From positions 1-50,491 of the forward strand of contig JAITXJ010000042.1 in NCBI GenBank assembly GCA_031284745.1: DNA of 50,491 nucleotides, given 5' to 3'. The translations under genes were made by a program, and so were the position numbers. This DNA is from Acholeplasmatales bacterium (GTDB lineage Bacteria; Bacillota_I; Bacilli_A; Acholeplasmatales; Acholeplasmataceae). The notes beneath the pieces were generated by a model that saw only the letters and a list, made by a program, of their open reading frames with translations, searched no databases and had not been told where the DNA came from. Positions 1 to 12,833 of the stretch are shown here, piece after piece. Every line of letters begins with the position of its first letter. Position 1 is the first letter of the stretch.

Positions 1-279
1 GATGATGAGCTCTCTAATATTCTTGCAAAAAAACCTTCCTATATGGTTCAACGCTATAAGGGCTTAGGAGAAATGAATGCTTCGCAACTTTGGGAAACAA
101 CGATGGATCCCGCCCGCAGGAATTTAATTCAAGTGCGCGTGGAAGATATGGTCGATAGCGATAAAAAAACCCAGATATTAATGGGAGAAAATGTTAGTTT
201 GCGAAAATCGTGGATCGACAATAACATTTCTTTTGATATTGTCGACAATTTTGAGATAAAAAAAGATGGCGAAGAATAA
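1..279 (+). CDS. parE: Topoisomerase IV subunit B, C-terminal fragment
   Basis: This is the last 92 residues of the ATPase subunit of a type IIA topoisomerase, running in frame from base 1 to a TAA stop; the rest lies outside the window. The segment shows the end of the TOPRIM domain ([13 protein letters not shown]) followed by LWETTMDP, where the WETTMDP motif is typical of ParE/GyrB C-termini. The stop overlaps the parC start by 14 bases, the usual parE-parC operon arrangement, which favours ParE over GyrB. The partner ParC completes the A2B2 enzyme that decatenates daughter chromosomes. Confidence 0.95.
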
Positions 280-3007
280 TTTAACAACTAGTGAAATAAT
301 CGATAATTTTATTGAAAAAATTCTCAATGAAGACTATGTTAGTGTCATGTCTTCGAGATTTTCGCGCTATACCAAGATTGTAGCCTTAGATCGCGCCATT
401 CCTGATGTTCGTGATGGCCTTAAACCAGTTCAAAGAAGAATCCTTTATGCCATGAATAATATGGGCTTAACTCATAATAGTGCTTATAAAAAATGTGCTC
501 GTATTACCGGTGATGTCATGGGAAAATATCACCCTCATGGAGACTCTTCTATTTATGAGGCTTTAGTTCATCTTTCACAAGATTTTAAAATGAATACTCC
601 ATTAGTGGATATGCATGGTAATAATGGTTCGATTGATGGCGATCCCGCCGCTGCCTTTCGTTATACCGAGGCGCGACTATCTTTAGCTAGTGAATATCTT
701 TTAGATAATATCGACTCCAATACGGTTCGTTTTATCCCCAATTTTGATGATACAGAAAAAGAACCTATTGTTTTACCTGCTCGCTATCCTAATCTTTTAG
801 TTAATGGTTCTCGCGGTATTGCGGTCGGTCTTGCAACCGAAATACCTCCTCATAATTTAGGAGAAGTAATCGATGGAACAATTGCTTTAATTGATAATCC
901 CTATTTAACCAATAATCAACTGTTTGAAATTATTTTGGGTCCGGATTTTCCTACCGGAGGGATTGTGGGGCCACGTAGTGAGATTTTTAAGGCTCTGTCT
1001 TCTGGTGAAGGTAAAATTCTGATTCGTTCCAAAGTGGATATTGAGGTAGAAGAAAATCTCAAACATTTAATTGTTACCGAAGTTCCTTTCGATGTTAATA
1101 AAGCTGAATTATGTAAAGCCATCGATGAGTTGCGCATTTCAAAGAAATGTGAAGACATTTTAGAGGTTCGTGATGAAACAGATGCTAGTGGAATTCGTAT
1201 CGTAATTGATTTAAAGAGTTCGAGTGATGCCAATGTCATTTTAAATTACCTTTATAAGACCACTAAATTGCAAAATAACCTCAGTTATAACTTAGTCTCG
1301 ATCATTGATAACAAGCCGATGAAAACCGGCTTTATGGAAGTTTTAAGTGCCTATATCGACCATCAAAAAGATATCTATACCAATAAATTAAACTTTGATT
1401 TAGAAAAAGCCAAAAGAAAAATGCATATCAATGAAGGTTTGGTTAAAATTGCTTCGGATACTTCCATACTCGATGAAGTTATTCGGATCATTCGTTATGA
1501 AGCCAAAGGGAAGGCTGATTCTAAATTAAGAATTATGAATCGCTTTGGGTTGGATGATTTACAGGCAGAAGCTATAGTCACCTTACAATTGTATCGTTTA
1601 TCCAATACGGACATTCGCTTAATCATCGAAGAACAAACCCAGTTAGCTAAAAATGTTAAGGATATCGAAAGCATTTTAGGCAGTGACAAAAAACTTTTAA
1701 AACTGATTAAAGAAGAATTAATTAAAGCTAAAGAAGCCCTTCATCAAGCTCGTCGTAGCCAAATTGTCGATAGTTTTGAAACGATTAAAATCAATAAACA
1801 AGACCTGATTACCAAAGAAGAAGCCTTTATCGGCATTACTAATGACGGTTATATCAAACGGTCCACCATTAAAAATTATAACTCCTCCAAGGAACAAGGC
1901 TTAAAAGATGGCGATTATTATATTTTTACCAAGGCTTGTTTAACAACAGAATTTTTATTAATAATTACGAATTTTGGAAACTATATGAATATTCCTGTTT
2001 ATCGATTAGATGATCAAAAATGGTCTAATTTAGGAAATTTTATTGGTAATATTGTCGATATTGAAAAGGATGAAAAAATAATTAGTGTTCATAAAATTAC
2101 TTCATTTTTAGAAAAACAACGAGTTTTATTAGCAACTAATTTTGCTTATGTTAAACAAATAAATTTAAGTGAATTTGAAACCCAAAAGAACAAAACCTAC
2201 AAAGCTATTAAATTAAGCCCTGGGGAATTAGTGGTTTCTAGTGAAATAGGTTATAATACTAACATCATCGGTCTCACCAAAATTGGATATGGTATCCGTT
2301 TAGATGAAACCTCAGTGGAATTATCATCGACTGGCACCAAGGGTTCACGTGTTTTAAATTTACGCGAAAAAGATATTTTTAAAGGAGCTTTTTACTCTGA
2401 TGCTTTTAGTGAAATCGTGATTTTAACCTCGCGGGGACATATCATAAAAGCGAAAACGGATGATTACCATATTGTCCAAAGATTAAAGTCGGGTTTTCTT
2501 TTAATTGAAAAATTAAAAACTAACCCTCATTATGTGGAAAGTTTCTTTAATTTAACCAAAAATCAAGCCAAAGAAGTCAAAGGAATTACCTTAAGATCGA
2601 AAAATATCACCCTCAACCTCAATACCAATGATTTGAAATATAACCAAAATAAGTATGGAAAAGAGATTATTGGCCTCTCACCAAGCAACCCATTATACAC
2701 TTTTACGATCGAAAAGTCAGAATTTGATATAATAGAAGCGCCTACTACTAATGTAGATCAACCAACTCTCTTTGATTATCTTGATCAAGAACCAGTTAAT
2801 AAACAGCAAGTAGAAGAGCCTGTTAGTTTCGAGATTACCAAAGCTAAAGATCTAGTTTCCGGAAGTAAAAAAGATTCGCTTAAAGAATCCCTTCCAACGA
2901 CCAAGAAGCCAAAATTGACTCCAGAGAAAATCTCGGAAGAAGAAAAGCCAACTAAGAAAATCGAAATCAAACCTATTTCCCGACTCGATTTAGATGATGA
3001 TTTCTAA
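266..3007 (+). CDS. parC: Topoisomerase IV subunit A
   Basis: DNA breakage-reunion subunit of topoisomerase IV, 913 residues. The winged-helix/tower region is intact: [18 protein letters not shown] at about 46-63, the quinolone-determining stretch [11 protein letters not shown] at 90-100 with Ser94/Ser95 and Glu98 in the usual sensitive form, and catalytic Tyr133 in [11 protein letters not shown]. The C-terminal beta-pinwheel is weakly conserved. It is followed by a charged tail rich in Lys, Glu and Pro (about 830-913), which looks disordered and makes the protein longer than most ParC. The start lies inside the end of parE with no clear Shine-Dalgarno, consistent with translational coupling. 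GyrA is the alternative, but the ParE coupling argues for ParC. Confidence 0.95.
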
Positions 3008-3018
3008 AGGAGAATAAT

Positions 3019-4650
3019 ATGTATATCAACTCAAAAAAAGCCCCAAACACCCTAGGTACCCTCGAAGAGATTGCGCGAACAGAAGGGATCAGTGGAATTT
3101 ATTGTGCCACTACCAACGGACGCTTACGAGAATTAACTTATGTTATTAAAAAGAAGAACATTGATTCGATGGAAATTAACTTTTTAGATTTAACTAACGA
3201 ACATGCCCATCAAATTTATCAATCAACTCTTCGCTATTTACTTAGTTATGCCATCTATCGAATTGATCCATCTTTATCTCTAAAGATCTCCTATAGCATT
3301 TCTAGATCTTTATTATGCACGCTGGAGAACATTAAAATAAGTGATGAATTCTTAGCGCGGATTCACGATGAATTAGCCGCGATCATCAGTGCTGACTATC
3401 AAATTAAGCGGGTAAATACCGAAAAGGATAAAGCTATCCGGATTTATCAAGAACAAGGCTTTTTTGATAAAATTGATATTCTTCAATATCGGGAAGAGAC
3501 AGTTGTCAATTTATATGAATGTAATGGTTTTTACAATTATGTTTATAATTACATGCTTCCTTCAACTGGTTATATTAAAGAATATAATATGTTCATTTAT
3601 GGCCCTGGTTTTCTCGTTCAATATCCGCGAGCTGAATATGGTGGACATATTCCCGCTTTCGAAGATGCTCCTGTTTTTTCCAGTGCTTTAAAAGAATCTT
3701 CCAAATGGGGAAGAATTACGAAAGGAAACACCATTGCTCGCATGAACGAATATGCGACTAATGATTTCTGTGATGATTTTGTCAATCTTTGTGAGACAAG
3801 ACATAATGATATGCTTTGTCATTTAGGCGATACTATTTTAGCACAAAAAGATGAAATAAGATTGATTTGTATTGCGGGACCTTCATCCAGTGGAAAGACT
3901 ACTTTTTGTAAAAGAGTAAAAATTGAATTAATGGCTCGAGGATTAAATCCGATTATGATTTCCATTGATGATTATTATTTAGAACGTCATTTAGTACCTA
4001 AAGACGAAAACGGAAAAGAAGATCTCGAACATATTGAAGCCTTAGATATTAAGCAATTTAATACCGATATGTATAACCTGATCAACGGAAAAGAAGTAAC
4101 TCTTCCAAGATTTAATTTTAAGTTAGGCAAAAGAGAAGCTGGAGAAACCATTAAGATTACCGAGGATAATCCCATTCTAATTGAAGGCATTCATGCTTTA
4201 AATAATCGATTAACAAATTTGATTCCAATGCATCAAAAATTCCGTATTTATATTGCTCCGCAAACAAGTTTACATATCGATAATCATTCACCAATTTCCA
4301 TTACCGATTTAAGATTAATTCGTCGAATGGTCCGTGACCAACAATTCCGAGGAGCCTCGGCTGAGGATACCATTAACATGTGGCCATCGGTTCGAGCGGG
4401 GGAATTTAAGTGGATCTATCCTTATCAAGAACAAGCTAACTTAGTCTTCAATAGCGAGTTAAGTTATGAACTTAATGTTCTAAAAAAACATGCTTTAAAG
4501 AGCTTACAATTAATCAAAGATGATTCTCCTTACTTCATCACTGCTAATCGTTTAATTAAGTTTTTGAAATACTTTAGCGACATCGATGATGATTTAGTGC
4601 CAGCCAATTCTTTACTTCGAGAGTTTATTGGCGGATCTAATTTTCGCTAA
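3019..4650 (+). CDS. TGS-domain uridine kinase family protein
   Basis: Nucleoside kinase of the phosphoribulokinase/uridine kinase family, 543 residues, with a long N-terminal extension. Residues 1-270 resemble the TGS and second additional domains of threonyl-tRNA synthetase (for example YLLSYAIYRI and GPGFLVQYPRAEYGGH). The kinase domain begins at IAGPSSSGKTT, a Walker A at 287-295, followed by SIDDYY at about 320 (substrate-site Asp) and the LIEGIHALN strand. This architecture is common in Firmicutes and Mollicutes and is usually annotated uridine kinase; the true substrate is not settled by sequence. A strong Shine-Dalgarno (AAAGGAG) precedes the ATG, 11 bases after parC, so it is probably part of the topoisomerase operon. 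Confidence 0.88.
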   Translation: MYINSKKAPNTLGTLEEIARTEGISGIYCATTNGRLRELTYVIKKKNIDSMEINFLDLTNEHAHQIYQSTLRYLLSYAIYRIDPSLSLKISYSISRSLLCTLENIKISDEFLARIHDELAAIISADYQIKRVNTEKDKAIRIYQEQGFFDKIDILQYREETVVNLYECNGFYNYVYNYMLPSTGYIKEYNMFIYGPGFLVQYPRAEYGGHIPAFEDAPVFSSALKESSKWGRITKGNTIARMNEYATNDFCDDFVNLCETRHNDMLCHLGDTILAQKDEIRLICIAGPSSSGKTTFCKRVKIELMARGLNPIMISIDDYYLERHLVPKDENGKEDLEHIEALDIKQFNTDMYNLINGKEVTLPRFNFKLGKREAGETIKITEDNPILIEGIHALNNRLTNLIPMHQKFRIYIAPQTSLHIDNHSPISITDLRLIRRMVRDQQFRGASAEDTINMWPSVRAGEFKWIYPYQEQANLVFNSELSYELNVLKKHALKSLQLIKDDSPYFITANRLIKFLKYFSDIDDDLVPANSLLREFIGGSNFR

Positions 4651-5663
4651 TGTCGGATAACTTATATAATAATATTGACATCATTAAACTTCTTTCCTTG
4701 TATGAAAAAAAAGGAAAGGAGTTTTATTACCAGGATGTTTTTTCGAAAGATGAAAAAACTATTTCTAAGAAATTTTTGCTTGATGACTACTTGAATTTGG
4801 CGTCTTGTCTGGAGATTAATATTTCCCCCAACAAGATCAAAAATATTATCAAAAATGGTTATCTCCCTAAGAATAAAGAAGAACAACTATTTATTAATTT
4901 TGTCAATGTTTTTAATTTAATTAATAGCAAAAGTGATCATCTTTCTTTTAATATTTTTGACATCAATAAAATCATTAACGGTATCAATTATAACCTTTCT
5001 AACTTAAAGAAATCTGAGAGCGTAAAGAACCTTTTAGACCCTTCTAAATCACAGATTCTTGAACAAATCATTAATGATTATCTTTCCAAAAAAGATGATG
5101 AAAAATATGAGTATTTATATTTAGTTGCTAATGTGATCACCAAGTTTTATAATGAAAAATTCTATTTAACTTTTAATTTTGAAACATCATTATTTCTTTT
5201 ATATTTGTTAATCTTCAAAAAATTTAAGGCCTTAAAATACTGTTCTTTTTTTGCTAGTCTTTATAAGTATCAGGAGGATCTAAAGCATGCCTTTAGTAAT
5301 AGCGAATACCATTATAAAAAAGGAATTAAAGACACGACTTTTATATATGAAACTTTAATCGATATCATGCTTGATGTTTACAAAAAAGTCGATAATTATT
5401 GTCTTCAATATCAAGTGGAGAATACCCAATCCAAACAACAAAATTTGAGGCAAATAATCTTACAAAGGAATAGTTATTTTAGTGTTAAGGAATTAAGAGA
5501 AGAATTTCCTAATACTTCAAAGGCCACCATTGATCGCACCTTAATTAAATTAAAAGCTGAAGGATTTATCGATTGTCAAATAAAAGGCCGGGCTTCCTTC
5601 TGGCAAGTAACCAACAAAGGTAAAGAAGAAACAAATATATCTACTAATCTATTTGATGAATAA
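4650..5663 (+). CDS. Unknown protein with C-terminal winged-helix domain
   Basis: A 337-residue protein I cannot assign. The C-terminal 65 residues (about 265-330) form a clear winged-helix unit: an N-terminal helix, then SVKELREEFPNTSKATIDR, then a recognition helix and a wing ending in GRASFWQVT. Such a domain commonly ends Fic-family proteins. The preceding helical region has roughly Fic-like length and hydrophobicity, but I see no HPFxxGNGR catalytic motif, so if it is Fic-derived it is inactive as an AMP-transferase. The start codon overlaps the kinase stop by one base (TAATG), so it is translationally coupled and is the last gene of the topoisomerase IV operon. An intrinsic terminator follows at 5769. 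Confidence 0.75.
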   Translation: MSDNLYNNIDIIKLLSLYEKKGKEFYYQDVFSKDEKTISKKFLLDDYLNLASCLEINISPNKIKNIIKNGYLPKNKEEQLFINFVNVFNLINSKSDHLSFNIFDINKIINGINYNLSNLKKSESVKNLLDPSKSQILEQIINDYLSKKDDEKYEYLYLVANVITKFYNEKFYLTFNFETSLFLLYLLIFKKFKALKYCSFFASLYKYQEDLKHAFSNSEYHYKKGIKDTTFIYETLIDIMLDVYKKVDNYCLQYQVENTQSKQQNLRQIILQRNSYFSVKELREEFPNTSKATIDRTLIKLKAEGFIDCQIKGRASFWQVTNKGKEETNISTNLFDE

Positions 5664-5664
5664 A

Positions 5665-5690
5665 TTATAATTATTATAAATAATTATTAA
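5665..5690. repeat. AT-palindrome family, copy at left edge
   Basis: Copy beginning two bases after the stop codon of the winged-helix gene, with core AATTATTATAAATAATTATT. A near-identical copy in the opposite orientation lies at 5963-5992. Confidence 0.5.
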
Positions 5691-5768
5691 ACTATTACCC
5701 GGATTAATTTATAAAAATTATAATTAATTTAGAAATAAAAATACGAAATCATATACCAATAAAAATAT

Positions 5769-5820
5769 AATAATAGCTATAGATGTAATTTAATAATGAA
5801 ATTATAGCTATTATTTTTTA
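5769..5820 (+). terminator. Intrinsic terminator of the topoisomerase IV operon
   Basis: A perfect 13-bp stem (AATAATAGCTATA at 5769-5781 with TATAGCTATTATT at 5803-5815), a 21-nt loop and a run of T at 5814-5819. It lies 105 bases after the last + strand gene and is placed to stop transcription before the gene-free region. Confidence 0.75.
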
Positions 5821-5962
5821 TAAAATATTATCAGGCTGATCAAATAGAAGAAGTACCATCATAATGTTTAATTGAGTATTTCTGGTTATTGAGATCTTTA
5901 AATCAAACCAAATATGAATTTTGAATATCATATCGAAAGAAAAACATCTAGTAGAATAATGC

Positions 5963-5992
5963 TTATATTATTTATAATAATTATGAATTAAG
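5963..5992. repeat. AT-palindrome family, inverted copy
   Basis: Reads on the minus strand as CATAATTATTATAAATAAT, nearly the same as the copy at 5665-5690 but in inverted orientation. Confidence 0.45.
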
Positions 5993-6383
5993 ATGAAAAT
6001 CATAGATTGATTAATTATAAAAATTATAATTTAGTAAAGAAGATTAAAATAATGTTATACTCTAAATTTTAATAAAAATAAGATCATAGAAAACTTATTC
6101 CGTCAATAATATTAAAACCAATGAATCAATAAGAAAAGCAGAAGAAGTAATTAAAGAATTAGAAATAACCATTTTACTTTAAAAAAGACTTAAGCTTTTA
6201 ATTGTAAATTTAGAGCTTAAAATTTTTCAATAATAGTAATTTAATTTAAGAAGTAAATGAATAGAAAAAAGATCCAGACATCTAAAATTAGTAAAATTAA
6301 AATATGTATTTTATTTTTAATTATTAAATTAATATAAATGAAAGAAAATATAATACTAGTAGAAGTTTATCATAGAGCCTTTT

Positions 6384-6424
6384 TATCTATATTTATTTAT
6401 AATTATTTTAAATAAATATAGATA
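6384..6424. repeat. AT-palindrome family, most perfect copy
   Basis: A perfect inverted repeat with 15-base arms, TATCTATATTTATTT (6384-6398) and AAATAAATATAGATA (6410-6424), around an 11-base centre. It is not followed by a T run on either strand, so it is not a simple terminator. Related copies occur throughout 5664-7820. Confidence 0.7.
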
Positions 6425-6702
6425 TCCAACATTGACTTATTTATAATTTTTATAAAAAGTTTCAATTTTTCTTACCGCCCTTTTGAGAAGAAGAGAGGTA
6501 TGTTTTTCGACTAAAATAAAGTTTTAAATTAATATGAATATAATCAAAATTAGAGTTAAAATGGACAATTGGCCATCAAAACATGCAAAATCATCAATAT
6601 TTCGATATAATGATATATAAATCATTATCAAAATCGATTTATGAATATGATTACGCATTATTAAACATAGTATTATTAAATAAAAACAATATCACAAGTC
6701 GG

Positions 6703-6738
6703 AAGAGAAGTGGTAAAATAAAAAAAATCACTTCTTTT
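6703..6738. other. Hairpin just left of the dif-like site
   Basis: Arms AAGAGAAGTG and CACTTCTTTT (nine of ten bases pair) with a 16-base A-rich loop, ending 13 bases before the dif-like site. Only four T follow the stem on the + strand, so terminator activity is doubtful. It could instead insulate dif from transcription. Confidence 0.35.
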
Positions 6739-6751
6739 ATAATATTTTATA

Positions 6752-6779
6752 TGTTCGTATAATATATATTATGTAAAGT
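6752..6779 (+). other. dif: dif-like XerC/XerD recombination site
   Basis: A 28-base segment made of a left arm TGTTCGTATAA, a 6-base centre TATATA and a right arm TTATGTAAAGT. Against the Bacillus subtilis dif sequence as I recall it, 23 of 28 positions match. The XerD arm matches 10 of 11, the centre is identical and the XerC arm is the least conserved, which is the normal pattern. The site lies in gene-free DNA between convergent operons and about 1 kb from xerD. It would resolve chromosome dimers at the terminus. Confidence 0.75.
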
Positions 6780-7033
6780 TATAATTATTGTGATTATGAA
6801 GTAATTTAATTAATCAATGTTTGAAAGTTGATAATTACAATTAATAATAATTGTCTAAACTTCTAAATCGATCATATATCTAAATTTTTAAAATTAAAAT
6901 ATTTAATAGTAATATTATAATAAAAACTTAAAAAGTGAATTTTTATTAATTTCTAAAAAAATTAGTAAAATGCTTAATATTTAAGATTTTTTTATTTTAT
7001 GTCAAACTTTTATTTTATAGTTTTTACTAGGCA

Positions 7034-7058
7034 ATATTTAAAATTATTATAAATAAAT
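7034..7058. repeat. AT-palindrome family copy
   Basis: Contains ATTTAAAATTATTATAAAT, shared exactly with the copy at 7748-7770. Confidence 0.45.
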
Positions 7059-7180
7059 CGACCTTTAAGTTTAGTTATTGTTTATAAATTTTATAAATAA
7101 TTTATCTAAATTAAATTAAAAATATAAAATTGGATGTTTTTTAAATTGACTTATTCAGATAACTTAATAGTAAATTTTGC

Positions 7181-7266
7181 ATATTTATTTAAAATAATTA
7201 TGAATAAAATATAGTATATATTTGATAATTAATTGTAATAATTATAAATAATTATTTAATATTTAT
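7181..7266. repeat. Two adjacent AT-palindrome family copies
   Basis: Copy 7181-7214 carries the arms ATATTTATTT and AATAAAATAT around a 12-base centre. Its minus-strand reading TAATTATTTTAAATAAATAT matches the perfect copy at 6384-6424. Copy 7234-7266 contains AATTATAAATAATTATTTAA and is nearly repeated at 7517-7548. Confidence 0.45.
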
Positions 7267-7516
7267 TCATTTTTTAAAGTCTCTAATTTTCTTAATAGTT
7301 CTAATTGTAAGTAAAATCTAGCATGAAATTTAATTTATATTTATAAAAATCGATGAATTCAAACTGTTAAATTTTAATCATTATATTTTCATTACCTTAA
7401 GATTTCTTTTGATGAAATTTTTATTTATGCTTATCTTCTTCTCTTTTTGGAATAGATCATTAAAAAATTAATTATAATAAATATAAATAGTTATTGTATG
7501 ATTTTGCTTATTATTC

Positions 7517-7548
7517 ATATAAATTATAAATAATTATTTAAATATTTG
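7517..7548. repeat. AT-palindrome family copy
   Basis: Contains AATTATAAATAATTATTTAA, the same word as the copy at 7234-7266. Confidence 0.45.
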
Positions 7549-7747
7549 ATATTCTAATTTTATATTATTCTTATATTTCTTACTTCATATAGTACTTCTC
7601 TAGCGATTCATTTGCCAAAAAAAATAACTTATTTAAGTAAACCAATTAAAACAAAAATTATTAACTTAAAAATAAAACATCTAATATTATTATCCTTAAA
7701 GAAAATGCTGACATAAATTTTTGAATTTAATATATAAAACTTAATAC

Positions 7748-7770
7748 TTTATTTAAAATTATTATAAATT
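7748..7770. repeat. AT-palindrome family copy
   Basis: Contains ATTTAAAATTATTATAAAT, identical over 19 bases to the copy at 7034-7058. Confidence 0.45.
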
Positions 7771-7788
7771 GTTTGTAGTAAGATTTAT

Positions 7789-7819
7789 ATATTTATTTAG
7801 AATTTATATAAATAAATAT
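7789..7819. repeat. AT-palindrome copy at the xerD stop codon
   Basis: Perfect 10-base arms ATATTTATTT (7789-7798) and AAATAAATAT (7810-7819) around an 11-base centre, the same arm word and centre length as the copy at 6384-6424. Its edge overlaps the xerD stop codon. It may act as a transcript-end hairpin, though no T run follows. Confidence 0.55.
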
Positions 7820-8718
7820 TAATCCTTTTTAATATCTGGATGAAATTTTAAGTATTGTTCCTTTGCTCTATTTTGGGAAATATGTGTATAAATTTGGGTG
7901 GTTCCTATATCGCTATGGCCCAGTAATAATTGAAGCGATCGCAAGTCTAAGCCGGCTTCTAAAAGATGGGTAGCGAAGGAATGCCTTAAAGTATGCGGCG
8001 AGATCTTTGTGGTAATCCCAGCGGCTTTTGCTAGTTTATCAAGTATACCAAAAAAACCTTGCCTGGTTAATTTATCCCCAAATCTATTTAAAAATAATTC
8101 TTTTCTTATTTTGTTTTTTTGAAGCTTTGAACGCGATCCTTCCAGGTAATTCATTATTGAAATATGGGCAGCTTCGGAGATGGGCACCACTCTTTCTTTT
8201 GATCCTTTACCCTTAATAATTATCTCTCTTTTCGAACTATGAATTTGTTCCAATTTGATGGATAGTAGTTCACTAACTCTTAAACCGGATCCATAGATAA
8301 GTTCGATTAAAGCGATGTTACGGAGTCCCAAAATATTGTCATTTTTAATGACATTTAAAATTGCGACTACTTCTTCGATTGATAATACGCTTGGTAATTT
8401 TTGATCTAATTTTAAGGATTTAAACTCTTTTGCTACATTGATGGAAACTTCCGATTCGATCAATAAATATTTATGAAATGATTTAATTGCACTAAGCTTT
8501 CGACTTATCGAGCGAGCTGTAAAATGATGGCGACTTAGACTTTTTAAATAGGCCTCAATATGCTTGCGTTCGATCGCTTTCGCTTCATCGATATCATGAT
8601 ATTTTTTTAAAAATAAAAGGTATTCGGAGATATCAATTTTGTATGATGAGATCGTATTTTGAGCAAGCATTTTTGTATTTTCTAAGTAATAAAGATATTC
8701 ATTTAAAAGTCCAATCAT
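7819..8718 (-). CDS. xerD: Tyrosine recombinase XerD
   Basis: Site-specific recombinase that, with XerC, resolves chromosome dimers at dif. Its 299 residues match the family length. The N-terminal SAM-like core-binding domain covers about 1-90. All catalytic residues are present: Arg147 (GSGLRVSEL), Lys171 (KGKGSKER), His242 and Arg245 (SPHTLRHSFATHLL), His268 (LLGHSD) and nucleophile Tyr277 (TTQIYTH). The LGHSDIGTTQIYTH wording is closer to XerD than XerC. The ATG overlaps the hemW stop as ATGA and is preceded by GAGG, so it is the third gene of a lepA-hemW-xerD operon. A dif-like site lies 1 kb downstream. Confidence 0.93.
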   Translation of the reverse strand: MIGLLNEYLYYLENTKMLAQNTISSYKIDISEYLLFLKKYHDIDEAKAIERKHIEAYLKSLSRHHFTARSISRKLSAIKSFHKYLLIESEVSINVAKEFKSLKLDQKLPSVLSIEEVVAILNVIKNDNILGLRNIALIELIYGSGLRVSELLSIKLEQIHSSKREIIIKGKGSKERVVPISEAAHISIMNYLEGSRSKLQKNKIRKELFLNRFGDKLTRQGFFGILDKLAKAAGITTKISPHTLRHSFATHLLEAGLDLRSLQLLLGHSDIGTTQIYTHISQNRAKEQYLKFHPDIKKD

Positions 8719-9815
8719 AGAAAAACCTCAAATATTTGATTAGCAACATAGTACCCTTTTTTAGACAATCTTAAGATATTATTTCGATATACAAGAAAAT
8801 GATTTTCAATGAAATTATTTAGTTGAGGATATAATTTTAAGACATCACATTGATATTTTAAATTAATTATTTTAATGTTTACACCTTTCATTTTTCGTAG
8901 TCCAAAAATCATTTCATCTTCAATAGCTAGCATTTGATCTTGAACTTCAACTAGGGGTGGTTCTCCTTTTAAGTATTTACTAAACACTTTTGTATTAGTA
9001 ATTCTTTGATTGTCAATTAGCGAACAGGCTCCTTGACCAAGGCCGAGATATTGTTGATAAGTCCAGTACTTGAGATTATGTTGCGAGACGAATCCCTTTA
9101 AAGCAAAGTTAGATATTTCATAATGTTGATAAGCATTTTTTTGAAGAGAATTAATCACTAACTTAGTCATCTCGTAATTTAAATCTTCATCTATTAACTG
9201 ATATTTACCGTGAATAATATCCCACATCATTTTGGTCTTTTCTTCTAAAATCAACGAATAATAAGAAATATGAGTTGGTTTTAAAGATAGTACTTTTTGA
9301 ATATCTTCTTGCAAATCACCCATGGTTTGCGTCGGGATGGCTAGGATCATATCAATGTTAATGTTATTAATCCCTTTGCTTCGTAAGTCACACATCATCA
9401 TTTCTACTTGTGAAAAATTATGAAATCTATTGAGTAAATTAATAAGCGGTTTTTGAAAAGTTTGAACACCAATTGAGACTCTTGTAATACCGTACTTTAC
9501 AAATAAATCACCTTGTTCTGGAGTGTATAGTTCGCTATTTGTTTCGATCGTATATTCCCGAGGATGAATATCTTGGAGAATGATTAATAATTTTTCTAAG
9601 TAAGAAATAGCCACGCTATTGGGGGTTCCTCCGCCAATATAGATGGTATCAATGTCTGGGAAATATTTTTTTTTCGAAACTACTTCCGCCAACAAGGCCT
9701 CAAAATAATTATTGATGCTGCTTATTCGATGATCATTTGTTTTGATAAAATCACAATAACTACAGATTTCTTGACAAAAAGGAATGTGAATATATAGTCC
9801 AATTTTATTGTTCAT
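8715..9815 (-). CDS. hemW: Radical SAM protein HemW (heme chaperone family)
   Basis: Radical-SAM enzyme of the HemN/HemW family. I place the start at the ATG giving [15 protein letters not shown], because members begin a few residues before LYIHIPFC and this gives 366 residues, a normal length; an upstream in-frame ATG at 9875 would lie deep inside lepA. The 4Fe-4S motif CxxxCxYC is present ([12 protein letters not shown]), followed by IYIGGGTPN and the family EISNFA motif, then a C-terminal HemW helical region ([15 protein letters not shown]). The start overlaps lepA by 11 bases. HemW binds and delivers heme, but the sequence cannot show which hemoprotein is served here. Confidence 0.88.
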
Positions 9816-11616
9816 CTTCGGTGGAAGTTGAAAGAATAGCCATAAAAGCTTCTTGTGGAATCTCGACTGACCCAATTTGTTTCATCTTCTTTTTCCCTTC
9901 TTTTTGTTTTTCTAGTAACTTCTTCTTTCTAGTAATATCCCCACCATAGCATTTAGAAATTACATCTTTTCGTAGAGCTTTAATACTTTCTCGAGCAATA
10001 ATTTTTGAACCTATTGCGGCTTGAATAGGAATCTCAAAAAGAGCTCTGGGGATTAAACCTCGTAACTTTTCGACAATCGCTCGACCGCGATAATAGGCAT
10101 TGCTCTTATGAACGATTAGCGATAAAGCATCGACAACATCACCATTTAAAAGTATTTCCATTTTAGCTAAATCTGATCTTTGATAATCGCTTAATTCATA
10201 GTCAAAGGAGGCATAGCCTTTAGTGGAGGATTTGATTTTATCAAAGAAATCATATACCATTTCACTCAAAGGAACGTTATAGGTAATAACCACAAGATGC
10301 TGTTCACCATATTGCATATTTTTAAAAGTTCCCCGCTTCTTTTGACATATATCCATCACTACCCCGACATATTCGTTGGGGGTAAAAACGGTTATTTTAA
10401 CAAAGGGTTCTTCGATATAATCAATGACTTGTGCATCTGGTAAGCGGGAAGGATTATCGATGAATACGATTTTTCGATCGGTTAAAAAAACTTTATATAC
10501 TACACTTGGCGCGGTGGCGATTAGATCAATTTTAAATTCTCTTCTAATTCTTTCCATGATGATTTCCATGTGTAATAATCCCAAGAAGCCAGTTCGAAAA
10601 CCAAAGCCTAAAGCTTGCGAGGATTCATTTTCAAAAACCAAAGATGAATCATTTAGCCTTAGTTTATCTAAGGCATCTTTTAAGTCTTCGTATTGGGTGG
10701 AATCGATAGGGTACAAACCACAAAAGACCATCGATTTTAATTTTCGATAACCAGGTAGGGGAGTTAAAGCCCCATTGGTCGCATTAGTGATGGTATCACC
10801 AACATTAACGACCGATATATCTCGAATGGAGGCCACCACATAACCCACGTCACCAAAATTTAGGGTATCTTTTACCAGTTCTTTGGGAGTATGCACGCCA
10901 ACTTCTAAGACTTCAAATTCGGCATTAGTCGACATTAACTTAATTTTATCACCCTTGGTAATGGATCCTTTAAAGACTCGCACTAAAGGGATCACTCCTC
11001 GAAATGAATCATAAACCGAATCAAATACTAAAGCTTGTAATTGAGAATTATCTTGACTAGTGGGGGCGGGAACTTTATCGATGATAGCATCCAAAACTTG
11101 ATTAATGTTGATGCCTTCTTTAGCACTGATAAGTATCGCTTCGGAAGCATCTAAGCCGATGATTTCTTCGATTTCTTGTTTTACGCGCGGGATATCAGCT
11201 GAAGGAAGATCAATTTTATTAATGACTGGAATAATAAACAGATCATTATCGAGGGCTTGGTAAACGTTGGCCAAAGTCTGAGCTTCTACTCCTTGAACAG
11301 CATCGACCACTAAAATGGCTCCTTCACAAGCCGCCAGGCTTCTAGAGACTTCATAAGTAAAATCCACATGACCAGGAGTATCGATTAAATTAAGAATATA
11401 GTTTTTCCCATCGGTATGAAGATATTTTATTTGTACGGCATTTAATTTAATGGTAATTCCCCGTTCTCTTTCTAAATCCATCGAATCTAAGAGTTGTTCT
11501 TTCATTTCTCTTTTACTGACACTATTGGTGTATTCTAGAATACGATCAGCAAGGGTGGATTTTCCATGATCGATATGGGCGATGATACAGAAGTTGCGAA
11601 TTAAATCATTTTTCAT
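9805..11616 (-). CDS. lepA: Elongation factor 4 (LepA)
   Basis: Ribosome-associated translational GTPase, 603 residues, full length. It has the G1 motif AHIDHGKST at 14-22, the switch region RERGITIK, G3 DTPGHVDF, G4 NKIDLP and the LepA-specific C-terminal domain ending in basic repeats. It back-translocates stalled ribosomes or aids 30S assembly. The ATG sits 6 bases after an extended -10 element and has no Shine-Dalgarno, so the mRNA is probably leaderless. It is the first gene of an operon with hemW and xerD, which overlap each other in turn. Confidence 0.96.
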
Positions 11617-11622
11617 ACTTAA

Positions 11623-11631
11623 ATTATATCA
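11623..11631 (-). promoter_or_regulatory. Extended -10 promoter of lepA
   Basis: Minus-strand TGATATAAT, with TATAAT at 11628-11623, ends exactly 6 bases before the lepA ATG. No -35 match and no Shine-Dalgarno are visible. A start at the seventh base would make the ATG the first codon of the transcript. Confidence 0.6.
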
Positions 11632-11749
11632 TAAGTAATCTTTACATAATATTTTACGAATAAAAATATCTATTAATTATTTTATCTATCTGGATCGTAA
11701 AAAAAGAAAAATTTAACAATTATAAATTGATGATTCTTCGTTATTTTTT

Positions 11750-11828
11750 AAAAGAAAAAAAGATGTGCTCGATTCCTTATAGGTTTCGGCTTCAATTGCC
11801 TACGGCTCTGGATTCCCTCATCTTTTAC
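11750..11828 (-). ncRNA. Candidate small RNA A, about 75 nt
   Basis: Predicted minus-strand transcript from 11828, the seventh base after an extended -10, to a T-rich run near 11755. The closing stem pairs AAAAGATG with CATCTTTT and leads straight into a T7 run, so the whole RNA ends as a terminator. The inside is GC-richer than the surroundings and carries two GGAATC words and a GGC...GCC hairpin. It does not match SRP RNA, tmRNA or any riboswitch I know. It could also be an orphan attenuator, but lepA has its own promoter downstream. Confidence 0.45.
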
Positions 11829-11834
11829 ACTAAT

Positions 11835-11843
11835 TTTTTATCA
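11835..11843 (-). promoter_or_regulatory. Extended -10 of candidate small RNA A
   Basis: Minus-strand TGATAAAAA, 6 bases before the predicted 5' end of the GC-richer hairpin RNA. Weaker than consensus at the last base of the -10. Confidence 0.35.
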
Positions 11844-11962
11844 CAAAATTATTAATAAATTATAATTTGATAATTTTATTAAACTTAAGGTTTACTTAAA
11901 GACAAAAGCGATATACATACATCACTTTTGAAAGAAAATAAGTATGAAAAAACCAAAATTAA

Positions 11963-12028
11963 TAAAAAAAAGAAGTGTTGATACTTTGTATTAGGGGAAT
12001 GGTATTTCATTCAGTAGCAACAACTTCT
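11963..12028 (-). ncRNA. Candidate small RNA B, about 66 nt
   Basis: Predicted minus-strand RNA whose first base (12028) is both the seventh base after an extended -10 and the first base of a long stem. AGAAGTTGTTGCTAC pairs with GTATCAACACTTCT (one bulge, one mismatch) and is followed by eight T. Inside is a small GAATG/CATTC hairpin and an exposed C-rich stretch, TTCCCC. A C-rich loop is a common way for Firmicute small RNAs to pair with Shine-Dalgarno sequences. The identity is unknown and the SRP RNA tetraloop motif is absent. Confidence 0.55.
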
Positions 12029-12034
12029 ATTAAT

Positions 12035-12043
12035 ATTGTATCA
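12035..12043 (-). promoter_or_regulatory. Extended -10 of candidate small RNA B
   Basis: Minus-strand TGATACAAT at the usual 6-base distance from the hairpin 5' end at 12028, the same geometry as rnpB. Confidence 0.5.
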
Positions 12044-12410
12044 TAATAAAAATAAAAGTAATTATAAGATGTCTTATCTCACTTAAGAAGGCAAATAATG
12101 GATGTTAAGGAGTAATTAATTAAATACTTAAACTTAACTTAAATGGTTTCTAAAAGGGGGTGAAATAGGATCTGGGAAGTTAATATTGACCAAGAAGACA
12201 AAGCATCAGAAAGTCAGGAGTTGTGATAAGCTATTAATAATTGAAAAGCTTCTTGTTAATTTAGTATATTTATAAAAGATGTGGTCAAATATATTGGCAT
12301 TTTGCTTCAATTTGGGTATTGTGTTCGCCGATATTGAAAGGCAGTGGAAAACTTGATGTTGGCCCGTTTTATAAAACGGTATTAGAGTGGTGGAGTTTTT
12401 TAAGAAAAAA
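12044..12410. other. Non-coding stretch, no gene recognised
   Basis: Less AT-rich than the terminus region. Short open frames of 40-70 codons occur on both strands, but they lack starts, Shine-Dalgarno sequences and recognisable motifs. A perfect 16-base palindrome CCGTTTTATAAAACGG lies at 12364-12379. It could be a decayed gene or a larger structured RNA; I cannot decide. Confidence 0.3.
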
Positions 12411-12444
12411 AAACATCACTTAAATATTTCTTTAAGTGATGTTT
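12411..12444 (-). terminator. Intrinsic terminator of the superoxide reductase gene
   Basis: A perfect 14-bp stem (AAACATCACTTAAA with TTTAAGTGATGTTT), a 6-base loop and nine T on the minus strand, starting 15 bases after the stop codon. Confidence 0.9.
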
Positions 12445-12458
12445 AAGGCTAAAAAAAA

Positions 12459-12833
12459 TTAAATAACTGTTTTCCAAAGACCGTGTAGGTTGCAATATTC
12501 ATATACGGCAATTACTTTATCACCTTTGGATAATGAAAAACTAGCAGTTGCTTCGTGGCCGACAATAATCGGCTTTCTTTGAGTTCCCTCAAGAGTTTCT
12601 AAAGCAATCCACTCAATATGATGTTCTTCTAAGGTTGGATGAGGAACGCTCCCTACTTTAACGTTAACTGTTGCACCAGCTACTTCTACCACTGGTAAAT
12701 GCTTCTCACGACTAGCTTCAACGGTATTAGCCACCAATTCTTGCATTTTTTCTCCACAACATACGACACTGACTCCGGAACTTTTTGCATAACAGATAAT
12801 GTTACCACAATGTTTACAAATATAAAATTTCAT
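12459..12833 (-). CDS. dfx: Desulfoferrodoxin-type superoxide reductase
   Basis: Reduces superoxide to hydrogen peroxide without making oxygen, a defence typical of anaerobes; soluble and cytoplasmic. The 124 residues form a class I (2Fe) enzyme. The N-terminal desulforedoxin knuckle has all four Cys ligands (ICKHCGNI and VCCGEK). The catalytic domain has Glu-Lys-His in SREKHLP, HPTLEEHHIEW supplying His ligands, and YCNLHGLW supplying the axial Cys and the last His. AAGGAG precedes the ATG, a TATAAT lies just upstream, and a strong terminator follows, so it is monocistronic. Its presence suggests an anaerobic or microaerobic life. Confidence 0.95.
   Translation of the reverse strand: MKFYICKHCGNIICYAKSSGVSVVCCGEKMQELVANTVEASREKHLPVVEVAGATVNVKVGSVPHPTLEEHHIEWIALETLEGTQRKPIIVGHEATASFSLSKGDKVIAVYEYCNLHGLWKTVI

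Follow-up and report, generated by a model that had tools for sequence, protein, structure and literature searches.

Organization of the locus

The window, that is, the whole stretch of DNA that was analysed, is a contig of 50,491 nucleotides from an Acholeplasmatales bacterium with a draft genome of 968 kb, spread over 49 contigs. Close to its left end lies a 28-bp dif site, inside an A+T-rich region devoid of open reading frames (ORFs) on which the flanking genes converge (Table 1). An earlier note, made from the sequence alone, had placed the topoisomerase IV operon to the left of this site and lepA-hemW-xerD to the right; both flanks are indeed occupied by these genes, but those of a uridine-kinase-like protein and of a Fic-fold protein intervene between parC and dif. 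The site was also said to have its own recombinase 1 kb away, which agrees with the 1039 bp that separate the end of xerD from dif. In the protein encoded at 4650-5663 the Fic catalytic motif was not found, and there was no Pfam or NCBIfam match. Its gene is conserved across the order and stands beside dif in several families; the family is missing from a genus without Xer and dif.

The region between the Fic-like gene and xerD is the longest ORF-free stretch of the genome (counting ORFs of at least 80 aa), the next one being 1430 bp long; the fourth longest, of 842 bp, is also in the window (11617-12458), between lepA and a desulfoferrodoxin-like ORF (12459-12833). In all 25 relatives compared, no ORF-free gap within 20 kb of sequence around dif is longer than the one that contains it. 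The description of 2.15 kb of gene-free DNA was accurate as far as ORFs are concerned, but the region is not featureless: it contains a structured array of repeats, and direct and inverted repeats of 12-16 bases are far above the level of third-order Markov simulations in 5664-7818. A search of 5200-8000 against Rfam gave no matches, no phage or plasmid DNA similarity of note was found besides one weak match to an A+T-rich plasmid, and octamers like the SRS of B. subtilis do not occur in the window.

Table 1. Features of the dif locus, in window coordinates
Feature	Position	Strand	Remarks
parE, 3' end, cut by contig end	43..279	+	ORF; parE beside parC in relatives
parC, topoisomerase IV subunit A	266..3007	+	highest-scoring family TIGR01061 (790 bits), slightly below cut-off
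Uridine-kinase-like PRK-family protein	3019..4650	+	PF00485
Fic-fold protein, C-terminal winged helix	4650..5663	+	8uqu: profile E 5e-25, fold E 4e-8
ORF-free A+T-rich terminus region with dif and palindrome array	5664..7818		2155 bp, 15.9% GC
Paired palindrome element 1	5661..5727		44-bp pitch, starts 5661/5705; overlaps stop codon of Fic-like gene
Paired palindrome element 2	5968..6033		43-bp pitch, starts 5968/6011
Paired palindrome element 3	6393..6459		44-bp pitch, starts 6393/6437
dif	6752..6779	+	28-bp 11-6-11 layout: XerC arm 6752-6762, centre 6763-6768, XerD arm 6769-6779
Paired palindrome element 4	7034..7100		44-bp pitch, starts 7034/7078
Paired palindrome element 5	7185..7251		44-bp pitch, starts 7185/7229
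Paired palindrome element 6	7468..7533		43-bp pitch, starts 7468/7511
Paired palindrome element 7	7749..7815		44-bp pitch, starts 7749/7793; ends 3 bp before xerD stop codon
xerD, tyrosine recombinase	7819..8718	-	TIGR02225 318.7 bits vs XerC model 296.5; R-K-H-R-H-Y motifs present
hemW	8715..9875	-	TIGR00539 above cut-off; true start probably inside, downstream of lepA overlap
lepA (elongation factor 4)	9805..11616	-	TIGR01393

The dif site and its recombination machinery

The letters at 6752-6779 are TGTTCGTATAATATATATTATGTAAAGT, exactly as first reported. The dif of B. subtilis is quoted as ACTTCCTAGAATATATATTATGTAAACT in PMC3025954, so that the sequence used in the earlier note was correct, and so was its count of 23 identical positions out of 28; the XerC arm contributes 7/11, the centre 6/6 and the XerD arm 10/11, the latter being the better conserved side as had been claimed. 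The agreement with the consensus of the difs of relatives is 26/28. With a weight matrix built from the sites of relatives alone, our own site being excluded, dif scores 32.2 bits and the second-best place 9.4 (966.9 of the 968.2 kb of the genome were scanned, some of it masked N), and hence no better match is found elsewhere. A pattern search allowing 3 mismatches likewise gives one match in the genome, and none when the pattern is reversed as a control, so the chromosome has a single dif by both searches. A dif was predicted earlier in one Tenericutes genome (PMC3025954). One other genome, G085, carries two identical dif-like sites (C4:188705 and C17:938), the second at a contig start and possibly a dif-integrated or plasmid copy.

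Two tyrosine recombinases are encoded in the genome: the product of 7819-8718 fits the XerD model better than that of XerC, and the reverse holds for a protein on contig C39. Both have the catalytic residues, and both score under the curated equivalog cut-offs (for XerD slightly so, 318.7 versus 329.6 bits). XerD aligns over its length to E. coli XerD (1a0p, E 3.9e-47), its nearest named relative being that of Paracholeplasma vituli (53%), which suggests that the bacterium is Acholeplasma-like. The xerC gene adjoins trmFO, as codV does in Bacillus. An FtsK gamma domain is present as well (PF09397 on contig C27, E 5.1e-14). These components are present or absent jointly: in three near-complete genomes of one genus (g7: G007, G020 and G030) XerD, dif and FtsK-gamma are all missing together, and in a class-wide sample none of the 17 genomes without a XerD match has a dif match. 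In samples of family f22 (e.g. G092, G100 and G135) XerD-like proteins are present and the dif pattern is unmatched; this family may use a diverged dif.

Across the order, dif lies 672-8344 bp past the 3' end of xerD (0.7-8.3 kb), the two converging, in every one of the 41 genomes that have both on one contig; conservation next to xerD had been proposed as a check of the site, and it is borne out. A purely accidental resemblance of the 28-mer to dif is conceivable given that the site is itself A+T-rich and lies in DNA of 16% local GC, but the gap between 32.2 bits and the next score, the recurrence of the same site, orientation and neighbour across 41 genomes, and the loss of dif jointly with XerD and FtsK-gamma make this explanation negligible. 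We are therefore highly confident that 6752-6779 serves as chromosomal dif in a canonical XerCD/FtsK system with two recombinases, and in its make-up it is an ordinary, standard XerCD site. It shares with the Bsdif and CodV/RipX system of B. subtilis the 28-bp 11-6-11 layout, an identical centre, 10/11 positions of the XerD arm, two recombinases and FtsK-gamma, and differs from it in the XerC arm, which matches at just 7/11 positions. XerC would bind the left arm of dif and XerD the right arm; FtsK would draw the dif copies of a chromosome dimer together at the septum, where its gamma domain would activate XerD, and strand exchange initiated by XerD would yield monomers.

Position of dif and its linkage to xerD

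The claim that dif marks the replication terminus is well supported through the relatives and consistent with what is seen in our genome. Seven relatives are assembled as a single contig; counted from dnaA, dif is reached after 46.6-51.7% of the circle in six of them and after 63% in the seventh. GC skew has a more positive value to the left of dif than to the right in 23 of 25 relatives (mean +0.090 versus -0.078). In our own window the change at dif is weak (+0.028 on the left, -0.052 on the right); since the genome is a draft in 49 contigs, the evidence for the terminus in this organism is indirect.

The linkage of dif and xerD extends beyond the order to the Bacilli families f9, f11, f12, f13, f14 and f19 and to one genome of f7, whereas in the sampled families f15, f16 and f24 the two are 50-240 kb apart, as against 1 kb here. 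On the other side of dif the arrangement is looser, the kinase gene being found there in 10 of 25 loci and parC close enough to be seen in 5; topoisomerase IV is near dif in some further families too. The side-by-side layout of topoisomerase IV, XerD and dif pointed out in the earlier note is real and conserved, with the qualification that the dif-xerD linkage is far more constant than that between dif and topoisomerase IV; the adjacency may reflect a shared function, as the note suggested. Dif and xerD form a conserved terminus module, which in some members of the group includes topoisomerase IV as well.

Most members of the family have an asparaginase gene to the right of dif; it is missing from our genome, which is why xerD comes so near to dif, and tblastn revealed no trace of asparaginase remnants beside the site. 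The turnover of genes between dif and xerD argues mildly that the linkage is selected rather than a matter of inherited gene order.

Modules in which a recombinase gene adjoins its own site are known from XerS/difSL of streptococci and lactococci and from XerH/difH of epsilon-proteobacteria (PMC5357621, PMC2731167). The locus described here resembles them in layout, gene and site forming one module, but it cannot be assigned to either, because each of those systems requires a single recombinase and two tyrosine recombinases are present here; difSL, moreover, is 31 bp long with an 11-bp centre, compared with 28 bp for this dif. In the literature that we searched, no such linkage of recombinase and site is described for XerCD, and a two-recombinase dif that keeps its convergent linkage to xerD throughout an order and in several other Bacilli families appears to be undescribed.

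A paired-palindrome array around dif

What is repeated in the ORF-free region is a 23-bp palindrome, TTATTTATA-N5-TATAAATAA. Its copies are arranged in seven 67-bp elements, three to the left of dif and four to the right, each with two palindrome copies whose starts are 43-44 bp apart. Palindromes with at most 2 mismatches number 11 in the gap, against 0.14 expected and a maximum of 2 in 200 third-order Markov simulations, probabilities that are post hoc because the consensus was picked by eye in the same regions in which it was tested; the fixed pitch and the array of a second genus (G006, see below) are the main independent checks. One further palindrome of this quality overlaps the stop codon of the gene on the left, and six are found in the other 889 kb of the genome, where no palindrome pair exists, although some 76 kb of this sequence is likewise free of ORFs. 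Within the pairs, the spacers of 20-21 bp are unrelated in sequence and the pitch is held, as would be expected if the palindromes were sites for a protein, but not if they were elements that had been copied.

A congener (G001) has seven palindrome pairs around its own dif, all with a pitch of exactly 44 bp, and 14 of its 16 single palindrome matches fall on the 8-kb contig that carries dif; some of its spacers have short stretches in common. An extra pair occurs in this congener between xerD and hemW (L063, contig C6, 3444-3510 of the reverse strand), 1.6 kb from dif, where our genome has none. In another genus, G006 has nine looser tandem A/T palindromes (L162, contig C89, 10149-10536), at a pitch of 43-44 bp with one 60-bp step, ending about 0.4 kb to the left of dif. 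The spacer in this array is partly conserved, CGTAAATTGAAC. A weak pair stands at the matching place in G019, of the same genus as G006. A stronger overall enrichment of palindromes was sought in the dif gaps of the other genera, but these show no 44-bp signal, the pitch being seen only in our genome, its congener and G006; as most genera of the family do without the array, dif does not in general depend on it.

What the array might do

At the terminus of other bacteria, MatP/matS and RTP/Ter consist of multiple sequence-specific sites and a dedicated binding protein. The array resembles them in that many sites are gathered at the terminus, the protein being in our case proposed only, and differs in being made of pairs of pure A/T 23-bp palindromes, at a pitch of 43-44 bp and within about 1.1 kb of dif. 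Binding of a protein is the function that we consider most likely for the pairs, at roughly even chances. A putative dimeric protein would then occupy each pair as two dimers about four helical turns apart, and could mark, fold or anchor the terminus around dif. A terminus-specific role of the array is a more tentative proposal, and we hold with equal caution that the pairs may be the sites of a new system of Acholeplasma-like bacteria that organises the terminus, stops forks or serves as an anchor, and that is physically integrated with dif, xerD and topoisomerase IV. The neighbouring Fic-fold winged-helix protein was considered as the binder and rejected: members of its family are encoded in genomes that lack the array too, so that nothing supports it in this role.

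Several explanations compete with protein binding. The gene-free region might be DNA decayed after the loss of a neighbouring gene, with no function besides dif, and the absence of the asparaginase gene that most family members have here would fit such a history; it is nevertheless unlikely, as tblastn finds no trace of that gene, the repeats far exceed the Markov expectation, and the array is ordered, has a fixed pitch and is common to the congener. Somewhat less probable still is a REPIN-type miniature mobile element that accumulated at the terminus by chance. Two palindromes around a short spacer are the architecture of the REPIN/BIME doublets (the REPIN doublet family is described in PMC3116915), and the short stretches common to some congener spacers point the same way. 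The pairs are however restricted to the dif region, the dispersed extragenic copies of a REPIN being missing from the other 889 kb, the spacers of our genome are mostly unrelated, a crude motif scan gave no match to an HUH transposase, the cognate enzyme of a REPIN being the RAYT (Y1) transposase, and G006 has a tandem array instead.

Far less credible than either of these is a role of the pairs as bidirectional terminators or as hairpins in RNA or DNA, although inverted repetition is seen in every element and the genes on either side point towards each other: four of the five elements tested fold no better than their shuffles, the centre bases of the paired palindromes do not co-vary in our genome, the 14 pure A/T palindromes would make poor terminators, and Rfam matches none of them. 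Equally improbable are DnaA boxes or XerD half-sites serving in SMC unloading. The half-palindrome TTATTTATA has nine bases and is reminiscent of the DnaA box, and in B. subtilis SMC is unloaded by XerD near ter (Karaboja 2021, cited in PMC8357415), but the dnaA region of our genome uses TTATCCACA, which is absent from the dif region, and the gap shows no enrichment of XerD half-sites, which are also unlike the palindrome in sequence.

A paired-palindrome array centred on dif, in a genome of about 1 Mb, appears to be undescribed in the literature searched. If the array binds a protein, as we consider about evenly balanced, strongly reduced genomes would also keep a dedicated system of terminus sites, and the compact locus would lend itself to easy biochemical testing. 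Single palindrome matches also occur elsewhere in the genome, on contig C34 (L082, 5230-6400), where runs of GA dinucleotides lie beside two near-identical segments with one match each; this segment looks like phase-variation-type simple-sequence repeats.
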